Below are positions 492 to 5,055 of a DNA stretch of 14,202 nucleotides, piece after piece; position 1 is the first letter of the stretch, and the number at the start of each line of letters is the position of its first letter. A program made the position numbers and the translations under genes. This stretch comes from Chitinophagales bacterium (lineage in GTDB: Bacteria > Bacteroidota > Bacteroidia > Chitinophagales > JADIYW01): NCBI GenBank assembly GCA_020848315.1, contig JADLAH010000337.1, positions 1-14,202 on the forward strand, given 5' to 3'. A model generated the notes under the pieces. It was not told where the DNA came from and did not search any database. It saw nothing but the letters and a program-made list of their open reading frames with translations.

Positions 492-3400
492 TTAGGCCAT
501 CACTTTTATGCGGATATTCGGCAGCATCTCCAGCTGTGAAATCAGATCTTTGGTGATGGTTACACCCGTTTTATTGGAGTGGAACCTCAGTGGCGGCTGA
601 TTATCTTCAAACAGATATAGGGTCATCGGCTTCTTGCCGCTGTGTTTGGAAACAATCTTGTAGATTCGATCCACCAAATCTTCCGTCAGATTTTTATAAT
701 GCAGCATGATGCGCAATTCTTTCGAATTTTTTTCCATGACATCCTGCATGAATTCAATCTGTGAGATGTTGAGTTCATATTTTTCAGGATCCCGGAAACT
801 TTTTTTGTAGTTCCCTTTCAGCAAAAGCCGGTTGCCGGGTTCCAGGAAAGCCAGGAATTTATTGTAGTTGTCTTTGAAAAACATCACCTCCAGAGAACTT
901 TCCAGATCTTCAAAAGAAACTATAGCCCATGGCCTGCCATTTTTATCGGTGCGTTTGTTGACATTGCCTACCATACAGGCAACGGATACTTCTCCGTCCC
1001 TGCGGTTTTCAATGTCCGCAAAGTTGGTATTGGTATAATGTTTTATCTCAAAATCATATTCATCGAGTGGATGACCTGAAATATAAATACCCGTTACTTC
1101 CTTTTCTTTCTGCAATTTCTCAAATGGTTGCCAAGGGGTGGTATGTGGCATGTCCGGCTCAGGAATCTGCGCGTCTGCCGTATCGCCGAATAAGGAAAAC
1201 GCGGTAGAGGCGCTCTGGTCTTTCACGTTGTTGCCAAATCGGATGGCGAGTTCTATCAGCGTGCTGCCATCTTTGAAGGTGTGGAAATATTGTGCACGGT
1301 GTGCATCCGGAAATCCGTCAAATGCGCCGGCCTGTGCCAGTGCCTCAATGTTCTTTTTATTCGCCGCACGGAGGTTAATTCTTTTGGTTAAATCAAAGAT
1401 ATTTTTGAAAGGTCCGTTGGCGGCACGCTCTTCCAGAATGGAATTGACCGCAGCCTCGCCACAGCCTTTGATAGCGGATAACGCAAATCGGATTTCTCCG
1501 GCTTTATTCACCGAAAATTTACTGTCACTTTCGTTGATGTCCGGTCCGAGTGTCGGCACATTCATGCGGCGGCATTCGCTGAGGAAGAAATTGATTTGTT
1601 TGATGTCGCTCATGTTGTGCGATAGCACCGACGCCATGTATTCCGCCGGATAATGCGCTTTCAGATAGGCGGTCTGGAAGGCGACAAAGGCGTAACAGGT
1701 GGAGTGCGATTTGTTGAACGCGTAGGAAGCGAATTTTTCCCAGTCCACCCAAATTTTTTCGCAGGTTTCTGCCTTCAGGTTGTTGGCAGCGCAACCTTCC
1801 ATAAACAGCGGTTTTAAGGAGTCGAGTTTGGCGCGGTCTTTCTTACCCATTGCCTTTCTCAATTCATCCGCTTTCCCCTTCGTGAAGTTGGCCAGCTTTT
1901 GTGACAACAACATCACCTGTTCTTGATAGACCGTAATGCCGTAGGTGTCTTTCAGGTATTCTTCCATCTCCGGCAAGTCGTAGGTGATAGGCTCACGTCC
2001 GTGTTTACGGGCAACGAAGTTGGGAATATAATCCATCGGTCCGGGACGATACAATGCGTTCATCGCAATGAGGTCGTCAAACTTATCCGGCTTGAGGTCG
2101 CGGAGATATTTCTGCATGCCCGGACTTTCAAACTGGAATGTTCCGATGGTGTCGCCGCGCTGATAGAGTTCAAATGTCTTGACATCATCCAGCGGTACGT
2201 CGTTGATATTAATCTTAATCCCGTGGTTCTTTTCTATCAGTCTCAGTGCGTCGCGGATAATGGTCAGTGTTTTCAGTCCCAGAAAGTCCATCTTCAGCAT
2301 TCCGGCACTTTCGATAATGCTGCCGTCAAACTGTGTTACCAATAGTTCGGCATCTTTCGCGGTGCAGACCGGTACATAGTTAACGATATCTTCCGGCGCA
2401 ATAATTACCGCCGAGGCGTGAATACCGCGGTTGCGGATAGAGCCTTCCAGGTTCTCCGCCAGTTTCAGCGTGCGTTGCAGCGGATTGTTGTTGTCTTGCC
2501 GCAGGCTGCGCAGTTCTTCCACTTCCTTGTAGGCATCCGCCAATGTCACTTTCGGGCGCTCCGGTACCAGCTTCGACATTCTGTCGGTGTCTGATAATGG
2601 CACTTTCAAAACGCGGCCTACATCCTTTATCGAACTCTTGGCAGCCATGGTGCCGTATGTGATAATCTGGGCTACCTGATTCTTTCCGTATTTATCCACG
2701 ACATAATCAATCACGCGCTGACGACCTTCGTCGTCAAAGTCGATATCAATATCGGGCATCGATATACGATCCGGATTGAGGAAACGCTCAAAGAGCAGGT
2801 TGTATTTTATCGGGTCTACATTGGTGATGCCAATCGCGTAAGCTACCGCGGAACCGGCGGCAGAACCACGTCCGGGGCCAATGGAAACGCCGAGATTGCG
2901 TCCTTCGTTGATAAAGTCCTGTACAATGAGGAAGTAACCCGGGAATCCCATATGTTGTATGGTTTTGAGCTCAAAGTCGAGTCGCTCAATAACGTCCAGT
3001 GGCAGTATCTCACCCCATCTTTTTCGGGCGCCTTCAAAGGTCAGAAAATGAAGGTATTCATCCTGATTGCTGAAGCCCGGAGGCAATTGGAAAGCCGGTA
3101 GCAGGATATCGCGACTCAGGTTCAGCGCCTGTACTTTCTCTGCAATTTCAAGCGTGTTCTCGATGGCAAAAGGTACATCCTTGAACAAGTCCTTCATTTC
3201 ATATTGTGTCTTGAAAAAAAACTTGTCATTGGGAAAGCGGAAACGATCCGGATCTACGAAGTCGCGGCCGGTCTGCAAGCACAACAGAATGTCGTGTGCC
3301 TCGCTGTCTTTTTGGTCCACATAGTGCGAATCGTTGGTGGCGATGACTTTTACTTTGTGCTTTTGCGCGAATTTCAGCAACTCCTGATTGATGCGCTCCT

Positions 3401-3971
3401 GACTCCATCCGGTGCCATCGAGATCATCGATATTGTGTCGCTGTAGTTCTATGTAATAATCTTCTCCGAAGATTTTCAACCATTCCAGAAATACTTTTTC
3501 CGCTGCTTCCACGCCTTTTGTAATCATGGTTTGCGGAACTTCGGCTCCCACACAGCAGGTGGTGGCGATAATGCCTTCGCTGTGCTGCTCAATCAGTGCT
3601 CTGTCCACCCGTGGGAAATCCATGTATAGACCGTCAATGAATCCGAGTGAAACTAGTTTCATTAGATTTTTATAGCCGGTTTCATTTTTCGCCAGCAGAA
3701 GTTGATGGTAACGCTTGTCCTTGAACTCGCGGGTGAATTTTTTGTTGAAACGGTCTTCCACCACATACACCTCACAGCCCAGAATGGGCTTGATTCCGTG
3801 TTTTTTGCAGGCGGAAAAGAATTTGAATGCCCCGAACATATTGCCATGGTCAGTGATGGCCACCGCAGGCATATTGTCCGCTTTTGCTTTCTTTACCATA
3901 GCCTCGATGTCCGCGGCACCGTCTAGCAGAGAATATTGGGTATGGCAGTGTAATGGAGCAAAATCGCACAT
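492..3971 (-). CDS. dnaE: DNA polymerase III subunit alpha (replicative polymerase, DnaE type)
   Basis: Catalytic subunit of the chromosomal replicase, 1159 aa, a normal full length. Domains in order: N-terminal PHP domain (about 1-280); palm with GPGRGS at 365-370 and the PDIDIDF motif at 406-412, where D407 and D409 are two metal-binding aspartates and D562 in MDFLG is the third; thumb/fingers to about 780; helix-hairpin-helix region near 827-850; OB-fold about 994-1074; C-terminal tail. The PHP ligands appear complete: H8, H10, D17, H42, E67, H89, C139 or C140, D214, H216. A complete set is associated with proofreading nuclease activity in some DnaE proteins, whereas E. coli DnaE has lost it. 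A clamp-binding-like AFSLF at 924-928 lacks the usual leading Gln. The ATG at 3971 puts the conserved HCH motif at residues 8-10. The gene is transcribed away from the structured intergenic region at 3972-4542. Confidence 0.97.
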   Translation of the reverse strand: MCDFAPLHCHTQYSLLDGAADIEAMVKKAKADNMPAVAITDHGNMFGAFKFFSACKKHGIKPILGCEVYVVEDRFNKKFTREFKDKRYHQLLLAKNETGYKNLMKLVSLGFIDGLYMDFPRVDRALIEQHSEGIIATTCCVGAEVPQTMITKGVEAAEKVFLEWLKIFGEDYYIELQRHNIDDLDGTGWSQERINQELLKFAQKHKVKVIATNDSHYVDQKDSEAHDILLCLQTGRDFVDPDRFRFPNDKFFFKTQYEMKDLFKDVPFAIENTLEIAEKVQALNLSRDILLPAFQLPPGFSNQDEYLHFLTFEGARKRWGEILPLDVIERLDFELKTIQHMGFPGYFLIVQDFINEGRNLGVSIGPGRGSAAGSAVAYAIGITNVDPIKYNLLFERFLNPDRISMPDIDIDFDDEGRQRVIDYVVDKYGKNQVAQIITYGTMAAKSSIKDVGRVLKVPLSDTDRMSKLVPERPKVTLADAYKEVEELRSLRQDNNNPLQRTLKLAENLEGSIRNRGIHASAVIIAPEDIVNYVPVCTAKDAELLVTQFDGSIIESAGMLKMDFLGLKTLTIIRDALRLIEKNHGIKININDVPLDDVKTFELYQRGDTIGTFQFESPGMQKYLRDLKPDKFDDLIAMNALYRPGPMDYIPNFVARKHGREPITYDLPEMEEYLKDTYGITVYQEQVMLLSQKLANFTKGKADELRKAMGKKDRAKLDSLKPLFMEGCAANNLKAETCEKIWVDWEKFASYAFNKSHSTCYAFVAFQTAYLKAHYPAEYMASVLSHNMSDIKQINFFLSECRRMNVPTLGPDINESDSKFSVNKAGEIRFALSAIKGCGEAAVNSILEERAANGPFKNIFDLTKRINLRAANKKNIEALAQAGAFDGFPDAHRAQYFHTFKDGSTLIELAIRFGNNVKDQSASTAFSLFGDTADAQIPEPDMPHTTPWQPFEKLQKEKEVTGIYISGHPLDEYDFEIKHYTNTNFADIENRRDGEVSVACMVGNVNKRTDKNGRPWAIVSFEDLESSLEVMFFKDNYNKFLAFLEPGNRLLLKGNYKKSFRDPEKYELNISQIEFMQDVMEKNSKELRIMLHYKNLTEDLVDRIYKIVSKHSGKKPMTLYLFEDNQPPLRFHSNKTGVTITKDLISQLEMLPNIRIKVMA

Positions 3972-4011: not shown

Positions 4012-4019
4012 CAAAATTA
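4012..4019 (-). promoter_or_regulatory. Candidate dnaE promoter (-7 element)
   Basis: TAATTTTG on the minus strand fully matches the Bacteroidota -7 consensus TAnnTTTG and ends 40 bases before the dnaE ATG, implying a leader of roughly 35 nt. No TTG sits 19-23 bases upstream, so the -33 part is weak. It lies downstream of both minus-strand terminators (4094-4117 and 4257-4285), so dnaE needs a promoter here if those terminators work. Confidence 0.4.
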
Positions 4020-4093
4020 CAATAGAAAAGACAGGGATGATATTTTTCCGGTCATTTTATTTTTCAACAGTGTATCATATTGATAATCAATTT

Positions 4094-4117
4094 AAAAACC
4101 GCACCTGAAAGGTGCGG
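4094..4117 (-). terminator. Rho-independent terminator of minus-strand module 2
   Basis: Perfect 8-bp GC-rich hairpin, CCGCACCT/AGGTGCGG (4110-4117 with 4099-4106), with a 3-nt loop and five U residues on the minus strand (4094-4098). The plus strand has no U-run after the hairpin, so it acts leftward only. No coding gene lies upstream of it on the minus strand before the divergent start at 4543, so it must end a non-coding transcript. Confidence 0.85.
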
Positions 4118-4161
4118 CGAACTAAATTGCCTTGAACTCAGTTTACTGCTAGTACGAAAGC
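4094..4161 (-). ncRNA. Candidate small RNA of module 2 (about 68 nt)
   Basis: Inferred transcript running from the promoter-like TAGCTTAG (4167-4174) to the terminator U-run at 4094. The start is taken about 6 nt after the -7-like element. It contains no credible reading frame and the only strong structure is the terminator hairpin. It resembles no RNA family I know. It could instead be an attenuated leader, but the next gene leftward, dnaE, seems to have its own promoter. Confidence 0.4.
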
Positions 4162-4166
4162 TTTTA

Positions 4167-4174
4167 CTAAGCTA
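4167..4174 (-). promoter_or_regulatory. Promoter-like element of module 2, in register with module 1
   Basis: TAGCTTAG differs from TAnnTTTG at one position. It begins 31 bases downstream of the inner operator repeat (4205), exactly the distance seen in module 1 (4406 to 4375). No good -33/-35 hexamer is present at the expected place, which would suit a promoter that depends on an activator. Support comes from the conserved spacing rather than from the motif itself. Confidence 0.35.
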
Positions 4175-4204
4175 AGGATAAACTATAATGAGAATGGAAA
4201 CAAC

Positions 4205-4237
4205 TGAGTGAGCGGTCGGAAAATTGAGTAAACGGCA
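4205..4237 (-). promoter_or_regulatory. LytTR-like direct-repeat operator pair, module 2
   Basis: On the minus strand, GCCGTTTACTCA (4225-4236) and GACCGCTCACTCA (4205-4217) are direct repeats with a 20-bp period, two helical turns. Their core resembles the recognition sequence reported for AgrA/AlgR-type LytTR regulators, [TA][AC][CA]GTTN[AG][TG] in direct-repeat pairs about 21 bp apart. The outer copy keeps the GTT core and the inner copy does not. The regulator is not encoded in this window, so the family assignment is an inference. Confidence 0.55.
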
Positions 4238-4256
4238 AGATGGGTGGCTGTTTGAC

Positions 4257-4285
4257 AAAAAAATGCCCGGACATTGCATCCGGGC
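4257..4285 (-). terminator. Rho-independent terminator of minus-strand module 1
   Basis: Minus-strand hairpin GCCCGGA/TCCGGGC (4279-4285 with 4265-4271), 7 bp, 7-nt loop, followed after one A by seven U residues (4257-4263). It is a strong leftward terminator with no coding sequence upstream of it on the minus strand. The module 2 operators begin about 20 bases further on. Confidence 0.88.
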
Positions 4286-4362
4286 TACACGCAACTAAGA
4301 GTTTTCATTTAAGACTAAATGAAACATCACTTCATCATAGTTTTATGGATTTATGAAGTTGA
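4257..4362 (-). ncRNA. Candidate structured small RNA of module 1 (about 106 nt)
   Basis: Predicted transcript from the promoter at 4368-4399 to the U-run at 4257. Three successive hairpins can be read on the minus strand: stem 1 ACTTCAT/ATGAAGT (4353-4359 with 4329-4335), stem 2 TTTCATTTA/TAAATGAAA (4316-4324 with 4303-4311, a perfect 9-bp stem with a 4-nt loop), and the terminator stem. Reading frames inside are at most 10 codons. It matches no RNA family I recognise. Existence of the RNA is inferred from the promoter, structure and terminator in the right order and spacing. Confidence 0.55.
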
Positions 4363-4367
4363 TATAG

Positions 4368-4399
4368 CAATATTACATGTTTTTGTTGATGTATGTCAA
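4368..4399 (-). promoter_or_regulatory. Promoter of module 1 (minus strand)
   Basis: TTGACA (4394-4399) and TAATAT (4370-4375) are separated by 18 bp, a near-perfect sigma-70-type promoter. Read in the Bacteroidota style it is TTG-N21-TAATATTG, one mismatch from TAnnTTTG. The direct-repeat operators end six bases upstream of the TTG, the usual place for an activator touching RNA polymerase. The expected start is near 4362. Confidence 0.6.
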
Positions 4400-4405
4400 T
4401 AAAAA

Positions 4406-4438
4406 TGAGTAAACGGTCACTTTAATGAGTAAGTGGGA
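4406..4438 (-). promoter_or_regulatory. LytTR-like direct-repeat operator pair, module 1
   Basis: Minus-strand repeats TCCCACTTACTCA (4426-4438) and GACCGTTTACTCA (4406-4418), again with a 20-bp period. The inner copy contains ACCGTTTAC, matching eight of nine positions of the LytTR-type core; the outer copy is degenerate. Position immediately upstream of a promoter suggests activation. The two operator pairs are 201 bp apart. Confidence 0.6.
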
Positions 4439-4460
4439 AATGTGCGTCTCGCGACACTGA

Positions 4461-4526: not shown

Positions 4527-4539
4527 ATCATTATATTTG
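4507..4539 (+). promoter_or_regulatory. Consensus Bacteroidota promoter abutting the GbsR-type start codon
   Basis: TTTG (4507-4510), 21 bases, then TATATTTG (4532-4539), a full match to TAnnTTTG with standard spacing. The ATG follows only three bases later, so a transcript starting 4-7 bases after the element would begin at or beside the start codon. Confidence 0.45.
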
Positions 4540-4542
4540 AGG

Positions 4543-5055
4543 ATGCAAATACAGCAGGCAAAACACCAGTTTGTTCAGGCATGGGGCGCATTTGGTTCCC
4601 ATTGGGGTGTCAATAAAACCATGGCGCAGATTCATGCGCTGATGATGATTTCTGAAGAATCCCTCAGTACAGAGGAAATTATGGAGACATTGGCCATTTC
4701 AAGAGGCAATGTCAATATGAATGTGCGCGAACTGATTGACATGGGATTGGTGTTTAAGGTGTTCAAACAAGGCGAAAGACGGGACTATTTTATCGGTGAA
4801 AAGGATGTCTGGAAGATTGCCAAGCAGGTGGCCAAGCTCAGGAAAGCCAGAGAGTTGGATCCGGTGCTTAACCTGCTGCAGGAAATCAGACAGATGGATT
4901 TACCTCCGAAAAATGAAGAAGTAAAGCGTTTTTTAAAGCTCGTTGATGACTTTTATAAACTGGCAGTCAACATTGACCGATTGGTGGAAGGGATTATTAA
5001 AGCAGAAGAAAGCTGGTTCTGGGATAAAGTACTGAAACTGCTGGCCAAAAAATAA
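4543..5055 (+). CDS. GbsR/MarR-family transcriptional regulator
   Basis: Cytoplasmic DNA-binding protein of 170 aa, normal for the family. The N-terminal W-G-A-F-G-S-H-W-G stretch (14-22) followed by M-A-Q-I-H-A-L (27-33) is characteristic of the Bacteroidota GbsR-like group. The winged helix runs from about 27 to 88, with the helix-turn-helix at about 41-70 and the wing at 73-85 (KQGERRDYF). The C-terminal half is helical and probably forms the dimer. The ATG at 4543 is preferred over a TTG two codons upstream because the conserved region starts soon after it. No Shine-Dalgarno sequence is present at a usable distance. Four bases separate it from the DCC-type gene, so the two probably form an operon and the regulator may control it; its ligand is unknown. 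Confidence 0.88.
   Translation: MQIQQAKHQFVQAWGAFGSHWGVNKTMAQIHALMMISEESLSTEEIMETLAISRGNVNMNVRELIDMGLVFKVFKQGERRDYFIGEKDVWKIAKQVAKLRKARELDPVLNLLQEIRQMDLPPKNEEVKRFLKLVDDFYKLAVNIDRLVEGIIKAEESWFWDKVLKLLAKK

Follow-up and report, generated by a model that had tools for sequence, protein, structure and literature searches.

What is made from two short predicted transcription units lying side by side between a DNA polymerase gene and a regulator gene, and what controls them? The window, a stretch of 14,202 nucleotides that is contig C337 of a 2.2-Mb draft Chitinophagales genome (G000), carries dnaE, the gene for DNA polymerase III alpha, on its minus strand (492–3971, the downstream neighbour) and, divergently on the plus strand, a MarR/GbsR-like regulator gene (4537–5055). 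Between them the minus strand holds two consecutive units, each consisting of a direct repeat, a -7 box, a short stretch and a terminator, which a first-pass annotation of the window had read as a duplicated regulatory module making two small RNAs, or two attenuated leaders, under one regulator. We consider it probable that both units are small RNA genes activated by a LytTR-type regulator, the first of them also being under FNR-like control.

The two operator-promoter-terminator units are real, their repeats, -7 boxes and terminators having been located where the first-pass annotation had put them. In unit 1 the direct repeat CCCACTTACTCA-N8-ACCGTTTACTCA (operator 1, minus strand 4406–4437, period 20, centred at about -58) is followed by the -7 box TAATATTG (4368–4375), a predicted small RNA of about 107 nt (RNA 1, 4257–4363) and an intrinsic terminator (4256–4285; hairpin 4285–4265 and a T-run to 4256). 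Unit 2, on the same strand, consists of the direct repeat GCCGTTTACTCA-N8-ACCGCTCACTCA (operator 2, 4205–4236, also of period 20), the -7 box TAGCTTAG (4167–4174), a predicted small RNA of about 69 nt (RNA 2, 4094–4162) and an intrinsic terminator with its hairpin at 4099–4117 and a T-run; no good -33 element was seen by eye. Both boxes match TAnnTTTG at five of six positions, and in both units 30 bases lie between repeat and box, which begins at the 31st base exactly as had been counted before. Taking the box to lie at -12 to -5, its position in Flavobacterium psychrophilum according to the available part of PMC9723704, we predict starts at 4363 (RNA 1) and 4162 (RNA 2), each one base from those first proposed (4362 and 4161).

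A weight matrix whose training set contained the two window sites themselves returned only these two repeat pairs at scores above 12 (32.9 for unit 1 and 35.7 for unit 2), the best score in 20 mononucleotide shuffles of the window being 12.5. The two terminators are the first two entries listed by a terminator scan that found 19 against 14.4 expected, and the fold z-scores are -3.50 (4256–4362) and -4.14 (4094–4163). Each unit has, as far as sequence can tell, its own promoter, with operator and -7 box at a fixed offset, and its own intrinsic terminator.

Unit 1 is conserved in the genus, for which we used eight genomes (G000–G007), the same-genus records being Chitinophagales or Bacteroidota metagenome genomes (JAGQYE010000007, JAGNZZ010000002, CAUJCO010000009, JADKZZ010000193 and JADLAJ010000297). 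When 60 relatives were searched at the DNA level, six of the seven other genus genomes (G002–G007) showed matches to parts of unit 1 or to its operator, and an exact core pattern, CTTAGTTGCGTG followed by TGCAA, was present in six of 298 genomes of the order, all within the genus. A covariance model built from six sequences (R1) and searched against 396 genomes of the order matched seven of the eight genus genomes, with E-values from 3.2e-25 to 4.8e-5; the G002 copy was found although it was outside the model and differs in its internal-loop bases, and its neighbourhood is the same. The only match in the 388 other genomes of the order (G340, E 0.009) is at chance level because 396 genomes were searched. 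RNA 1 lies between the marR-like gene and dnaE in all seven genomes that carry it. Its -7 box reaches only four of six matches in G004 and G002, and in G003 the repeat before it is degenerate (score 17.1). Public scans with the core pattern returned 62 and 9 stretches; five of the 62 are RNA 1 (L085, L106, L107, L108 and L115), and the rest, left unread, were put down to chance in view of how long the variable gap is. The covariance search against Rfam that had been suggested at the outset gave no family: in the window nothing matched at gathering score, the ten matches at E≤10 all lying far below it, and at E≤1 a single match, taken for chance, appeared among 14 related loci. RNA 1 is well supported as a predicted small RNA gene conserved in the genus, without a match in Rfam.

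The first-pass annotation had staked its reading in part on conservation in close relatives, and there RNA 1 was recovered together with its repeat whereas RNA 2 was not; the proposal of two small RNAs under one regulator stands well for unit 1, with its RNA in seven of eight genus genomes, and is plausible for unit 2, which is unconserved. The DNA search of relatives found no match to RNA 2 in the seven other genus genomes, and no second strong repeat pair was found between RNA 1 and dnaE in six relatives (L085, L106, L107, L108, L115 and L007). One match over the promoter part of unit 2, in G024 (E 5.6e-4), falls at the start of a putative ribosomal protein gene, and we regard it as a chance match. 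The two transcribed parts had been described as different under like control, and RNA 2 does share the operator of RNA 1 and not its sequence: homology of the two RNAs was rejected (local alignment score 15 against a shuffled mean of 17.9, p 0.84), and R1 with filters off gave no match on 4094–4162 among 34 matches up to E 10. Duplication describes the operator and -7 spacing, which the units have in common, and not the RNAs, which are dissimilar. A relic promoter beside an unrelated terminator, with no function for unit 2, would fit both the absence of matches in the genus and the poor -33 region; the strong repeat pair (35.7), the -7 box after 30 bases and the fold z-score of -4.14 argue against it, and we think it unlikely, if worth serious thought. 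RNA 2 is more readily seen as a lineage-specific small RNA, likely but unproven, which would have been added to the regulon of RNA 1 in this lineage.

The direct repeat recurs far beyond the two units. A pattern derived from the window repeats (half-site ACCGNNTACTMA, 20-base period in both units), allowing up to three mismatches, found three sites in the 2.2-Mb genome against none for the reversed control, and since two of these are the window sites from which it was drawn, independent support comes from the third alone; with period 21 one more site was found in this genome. With a wrong spacer the pattern gave none in the window and, in the genome, 10 sites against 14 for the control, no excess. 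Across 13 genomes we found 23 period-20 and 29 period-21 sites, with 1 and 0 for the respective reversed patterns. Genome G001 has no site of either period, and outside the genus the patterns gave one match in G010 and four in G009. The G009 matches (L132, L137, L142 and L146) fall on successive ACCCAATACTCA-like units that look like tandem repeats. For counting we used 47 sites from G000–G007, including one degenerate G003 site added by hand and leaving aside the G010 entry, an overlapping G005 entry and the four from G009.

The search patterns for the repeat carry no information on the -7 box, and 34 of the 47 sites have a box with at least five of six matches to TAnnTTTG after 28–31 bases, compared with at most 8 there, and at most 12 anywhere, in shuffles; away from this peak no 4-base window held more than 7. 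Without the seven RNA 1 orthologues the box is present at 29 of 40 sites, and with one site per orthologue group (groups assigned by eye) at 23 of 31, where shuffles reached at most 6. The other 13 operator-like sites, among them the third period-20 site of G000 (L028, 4/6), have no such box at the right place. The direct repeat is, on these counts, a predicted genus-wide operator with fixed spacing to a -7 box. The 13 sites without such a box also include those before RNA 1 in G004 and G002, and three in which a conserved operator-like repeat stands at the 3′ end of a gene read as a thiolase (L138, L139 and L128).

Downstream of the sites lie, among others, small genes whose products look exported or lipoprotein-like to judge from the N-terminus (one matches the Pfam lipocalin family), and RNA-like stretches with terminators. 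One such family (L135 in G004, L147 in G005 and L136 in G006, beside a gene read as a PLP enzyme) has CTGTTG..GAAACA, then AAAGACTGGTTA, then a terminator; another stretch follows an operator on contig C122 of G004 (L145), and a further one in G000 (L023) lies after an AIR-synthase gene, with a box of just four of six matches. A separate RNA-like family around GTAGGGTTTTTATGTTTCTA recurs in the genus, mostly with a terminator-like hairpin after it by eye, in G000 (L224:1629–1642 on contig C214, L228 and L223), G003 (L226 and L230), G005 (L225) and G007 (L227, L229 and L231). Its C214 copy lies behind the same direct-repeat operator as RNA 1, and none of the stretches of this family matched Rfam at E≤1. 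With filters off, R1 matched L225 weakly at two places (E 0.0035 and 0.0064), the second being the copy of this family, which may reflect a distant relation to RNA 1 or a common terminator shape.

Which protein binds the repeat? LytTR repeats are mostly 12 bp apart, in a minority 11 or 13, and lie just upstream of -35, according to the accessible text of PMC6193735, and those of AgrA are centred near -60 in that of PMC4227749. The genus operator, with its period of 20–21, its centre at about -58 and its place upstream of the promoter, agrees with the direct-repeat spacing of LytTR proteins. In a FastTree of 30 LytTR proteins, from which we took clades A, A′ and C as drawn and without branch support values, clade A is found in all seven genus genomes with the operator and RNA 1 and is absent from G001, which has neither. 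Clade C is present in G001 and six others, so that G001 is not devoid of LytTR genes as such; the co-occurrence, a within-genus one, rests on this one negative genome, the LytTR genes of G010 being only partly placed. Clade A is a receiver-LytTR protein beside a divergent TPR protein (domains tested for G000). Clade A′ was rejected as the sole regulator, since it was not found in G000, G003 or G007 (one G007 match, on contig C59, is unplaced). In L154, L155 and L166 a repeat is followed by a gene for a small cysteine-containing exported protein and, directly downstream, by a clade A′ LytTR response regulator.

Half-site spacing alone cannot tell LytTR from AraC, and the operator could be bound by another class that uses 20–21 bp direct repeats, such as AraC proteins, or by the MarR-like protein, whose gene is the divergent neighbour of RNA 1 in relatives too. 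MarR proteins, however, usually bind palindromes rather than direct repeats, the other operator sites with examined contexts are away from marR-like genes, and operator-like repeats stand near genes of the sister LytTR clade in three genomes (L154, score 28.0; L155, 13.4 and weak; L166, 22.3), and we regard a binder of another class as improbable. Taken together, the period and position of the repeat and its co-occurrence with clade A favour a LytTR response regulator. This protein would bind the repeat centred near -58 and activate a Bacteroidota promoter with its -7 box 30 bases further on, and the transcripts would end at the terminators, yielding RNA 1 (~107 nt) and RNA 2 (~69 nt).

Unit 1 has a further element that escaped the first-pass annotation, the FNR/CRP-like near-palindrome TTGACATACATCAA (minus strand, 4399–4386), centred at about -30 over the -33 region and found in unit 1 only. 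The motif TTGAYNNNNRTCAA follows the repeat by 6–7 nt at 9 of the 47 sites (shuffled mean 0.01), six of them in RNA 1 promoters and the other three in promoters of small-protein genes (L134, L140 and L151). FNR sites have a consensus of the TTGAT-N4-ATCAA type, and six of the seven RNA 1 promoters have a site of this type, 6 nt downstream of the repeat. The six genomes in which an FNR-like orthologue was found (L184–L189, grouped by eye) are also the six whose RNA 1 is preceded by the intact box. The N-terminal cysteines of the six proteins are spaced C-x2-C-x8-C, a spacing that differs from that of Escherichia coli FNR, and for the only protein tested, that of G000, the best-matching NCBIfam model is Fnr, at a score below its cut-off. 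In G002, where no HTH_Crp_2 match was found and the box is degenerate, RNA 1 is retained, so FNR control would not be essential. A search of eight genomes for the repeat plus FNR composite with a spacer of 7 gave 62 matches against 52 for the control, with just two exact matches, both at small-protein promoters (L206 and L208); as the spacer is 6 in RNA 1, its promoters were missed by this pattern. From the position over the -33 region a repressor-like or tuning role is to be expected, and our guess at the sign of control is that an FNR-like protein would block or tune RNA 1, and not RNA 2, according to redox state.

The predicted fold of RNA 1 consists of an outer helix, an inner hairpin and the terminator hairpin. 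The two blocks of highest conservation, CATAAAACTATGA (4335–4347, 5′ side) and TCTTAGTTGCGTG (4288–4300, 3′ side), are the strands of the outer helix, which encloses an inner hairpin of variable sequence (4303–4324). In an alignment of seven sequences, which was fitted to the structure and so favours it in these counts, 92.2% of 167 cells are paired, as opposed to 27–40% for slid partners and just 75.5% in the inner hairpin. The stem covariation that the first-pass annotation had proposed to examine was found in part: in 7 of 24 pairs both partners have changed (mean of shuffles 4.0; 16 of 500 shuffles reach 7), all of them in the inner hairpin and the terminator, and the outer helix is nearly invariant, so that its support is complementarity and not covariation. 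Twelve of the 24 pairs, including 8 of 10 in the outer helix, are invariant and say nothing for or against the fold, and the 11 further pair types show no excess over shuffles (mean 10.4; 241 of 500 reach 11).

The ATG at 4338 could instead start a tiny peptide, making RNA 1 a short mRNA or a dual-function RNA, and it is true that AAACTATGA is conserved in all seven RNA 1 sequences, that in four genomes the frame opens with a similar M(I/T)(N/T)L and that the same operator precedes small exported proteins elsewhere. Nevertheless, no conserved ORF was found among the seven sequences, the frames from this ATG running to 3–12 residues and otherwise differing, and the conserved block is accounted for as one side of the outer helix; a coding role strikes us as quite unlikely. 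The other alternative, that dnaE has the units as its attenuated or regulatory leaders, with terminators that are conditionally read through, would suit the place of dnaE, which follows RNA 1 on one strand in seven genomes (159–434 nt from core to dnaE start in the five measured, the window, L085, L106, L107 and L108). It is highly improbable given the two ORFs of 95 and 185 aa, neither with a Pfam match, between RNA 1 and dnaE in G007, the whole of unit 2 in that position in the window, the 6/6 TAnnTTTG box of dnaE itself at 4019–4012, and conserved blocks of RNA 1 that precede a terminator whose hairpin is itself conserved. As a small RNA, RNA 1 would form a closed structure held by its long-range helix and would probably act in trans by base pairing.

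Response regulators that activate regulatory RNA genes are known, as AgrA with RNAIII in Staphylococcus aureus, VirR with VR-RNA and FasA with FasX (PMC7602753, as far as its available text goes), and the arrangement predicted here resembles them in having a response regulator drive a regulatory RNA. The likeness is closest for AgrA, which carries LytTR and has repeats near -60 (PMC4227749, in part), against a centre of about -58 here. These three RNAs, however, are Firmicutes RNAs of 514, 386 and 205 nt (PMC7602753, same excerpt), longer than those described here. RNAIII and FasX are encoded in the locus of their regulator, whereas our RNAs are unlinked to the LytTR gene and one has an FNR-like site; a search against Rfam found no sequence relation to RNAIII, VR-RNA or FasX. 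VirR and FasA are LytTR proteins as well. The small RNA FnrS of E. coli has an FNR-type promoter site, as RNA 1 does, and is reportedly activated by FNR; the RNA 1 site, in contrast, lies over the -33 region, which suggests repression, and RNA 1 has no Rfam match.

Within the Bacteroidota, GibS of Bacteroides thetaiotaomicron and Rfp18 of F. psychrophilum are likewise small RNAs conserved in their genus (PMC7366714 and PMC9723704), the available portions of which mention no direct-repeat operator; RNA 1 is set apart from them by description and not by sequence. The LytTR Regulatory Systems of Streptococcus mutans also have direct repeats about 12 bp apart just upstream of the promoter (PMC6193735), with a regulator paired, in the text at hand, with a membrane protein, whereas the candidate here has a receiver domain and the repeat half-site reads ACCGNNTACTMA. 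A small RNA under a response regulator is thus a known kind of system, already described in Firmicutes (PMC7602753, in its available part). What is new, as far as literature searches show, is the RNA family and the composite promoter in Bacteroidota; a search by title found no paper on small RNAs in Chitinophaga or Chitinophagales.

The locus provides this group with a defined small RNA family and with an operator described by its half-site, period and distance to the -7 box, which allows the regulon to be listed in other genomes of the genus. The composite promoter lends itself to a clear test of how one Bacteroidota -33/-7 promoter would be shared by an activator and an FNR-like protein. We put forward tentatively, as a possibility we would not yet bet on, that these sites make up a Bacteroidota LytTR two-component regulon of several unrelated small RNAs and small exported proteins, one RNA being gated by FNR over its -33 box. 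If true, this would mean that a logic like that of Agr and RNAIII operates in a Gram-negative phylum.
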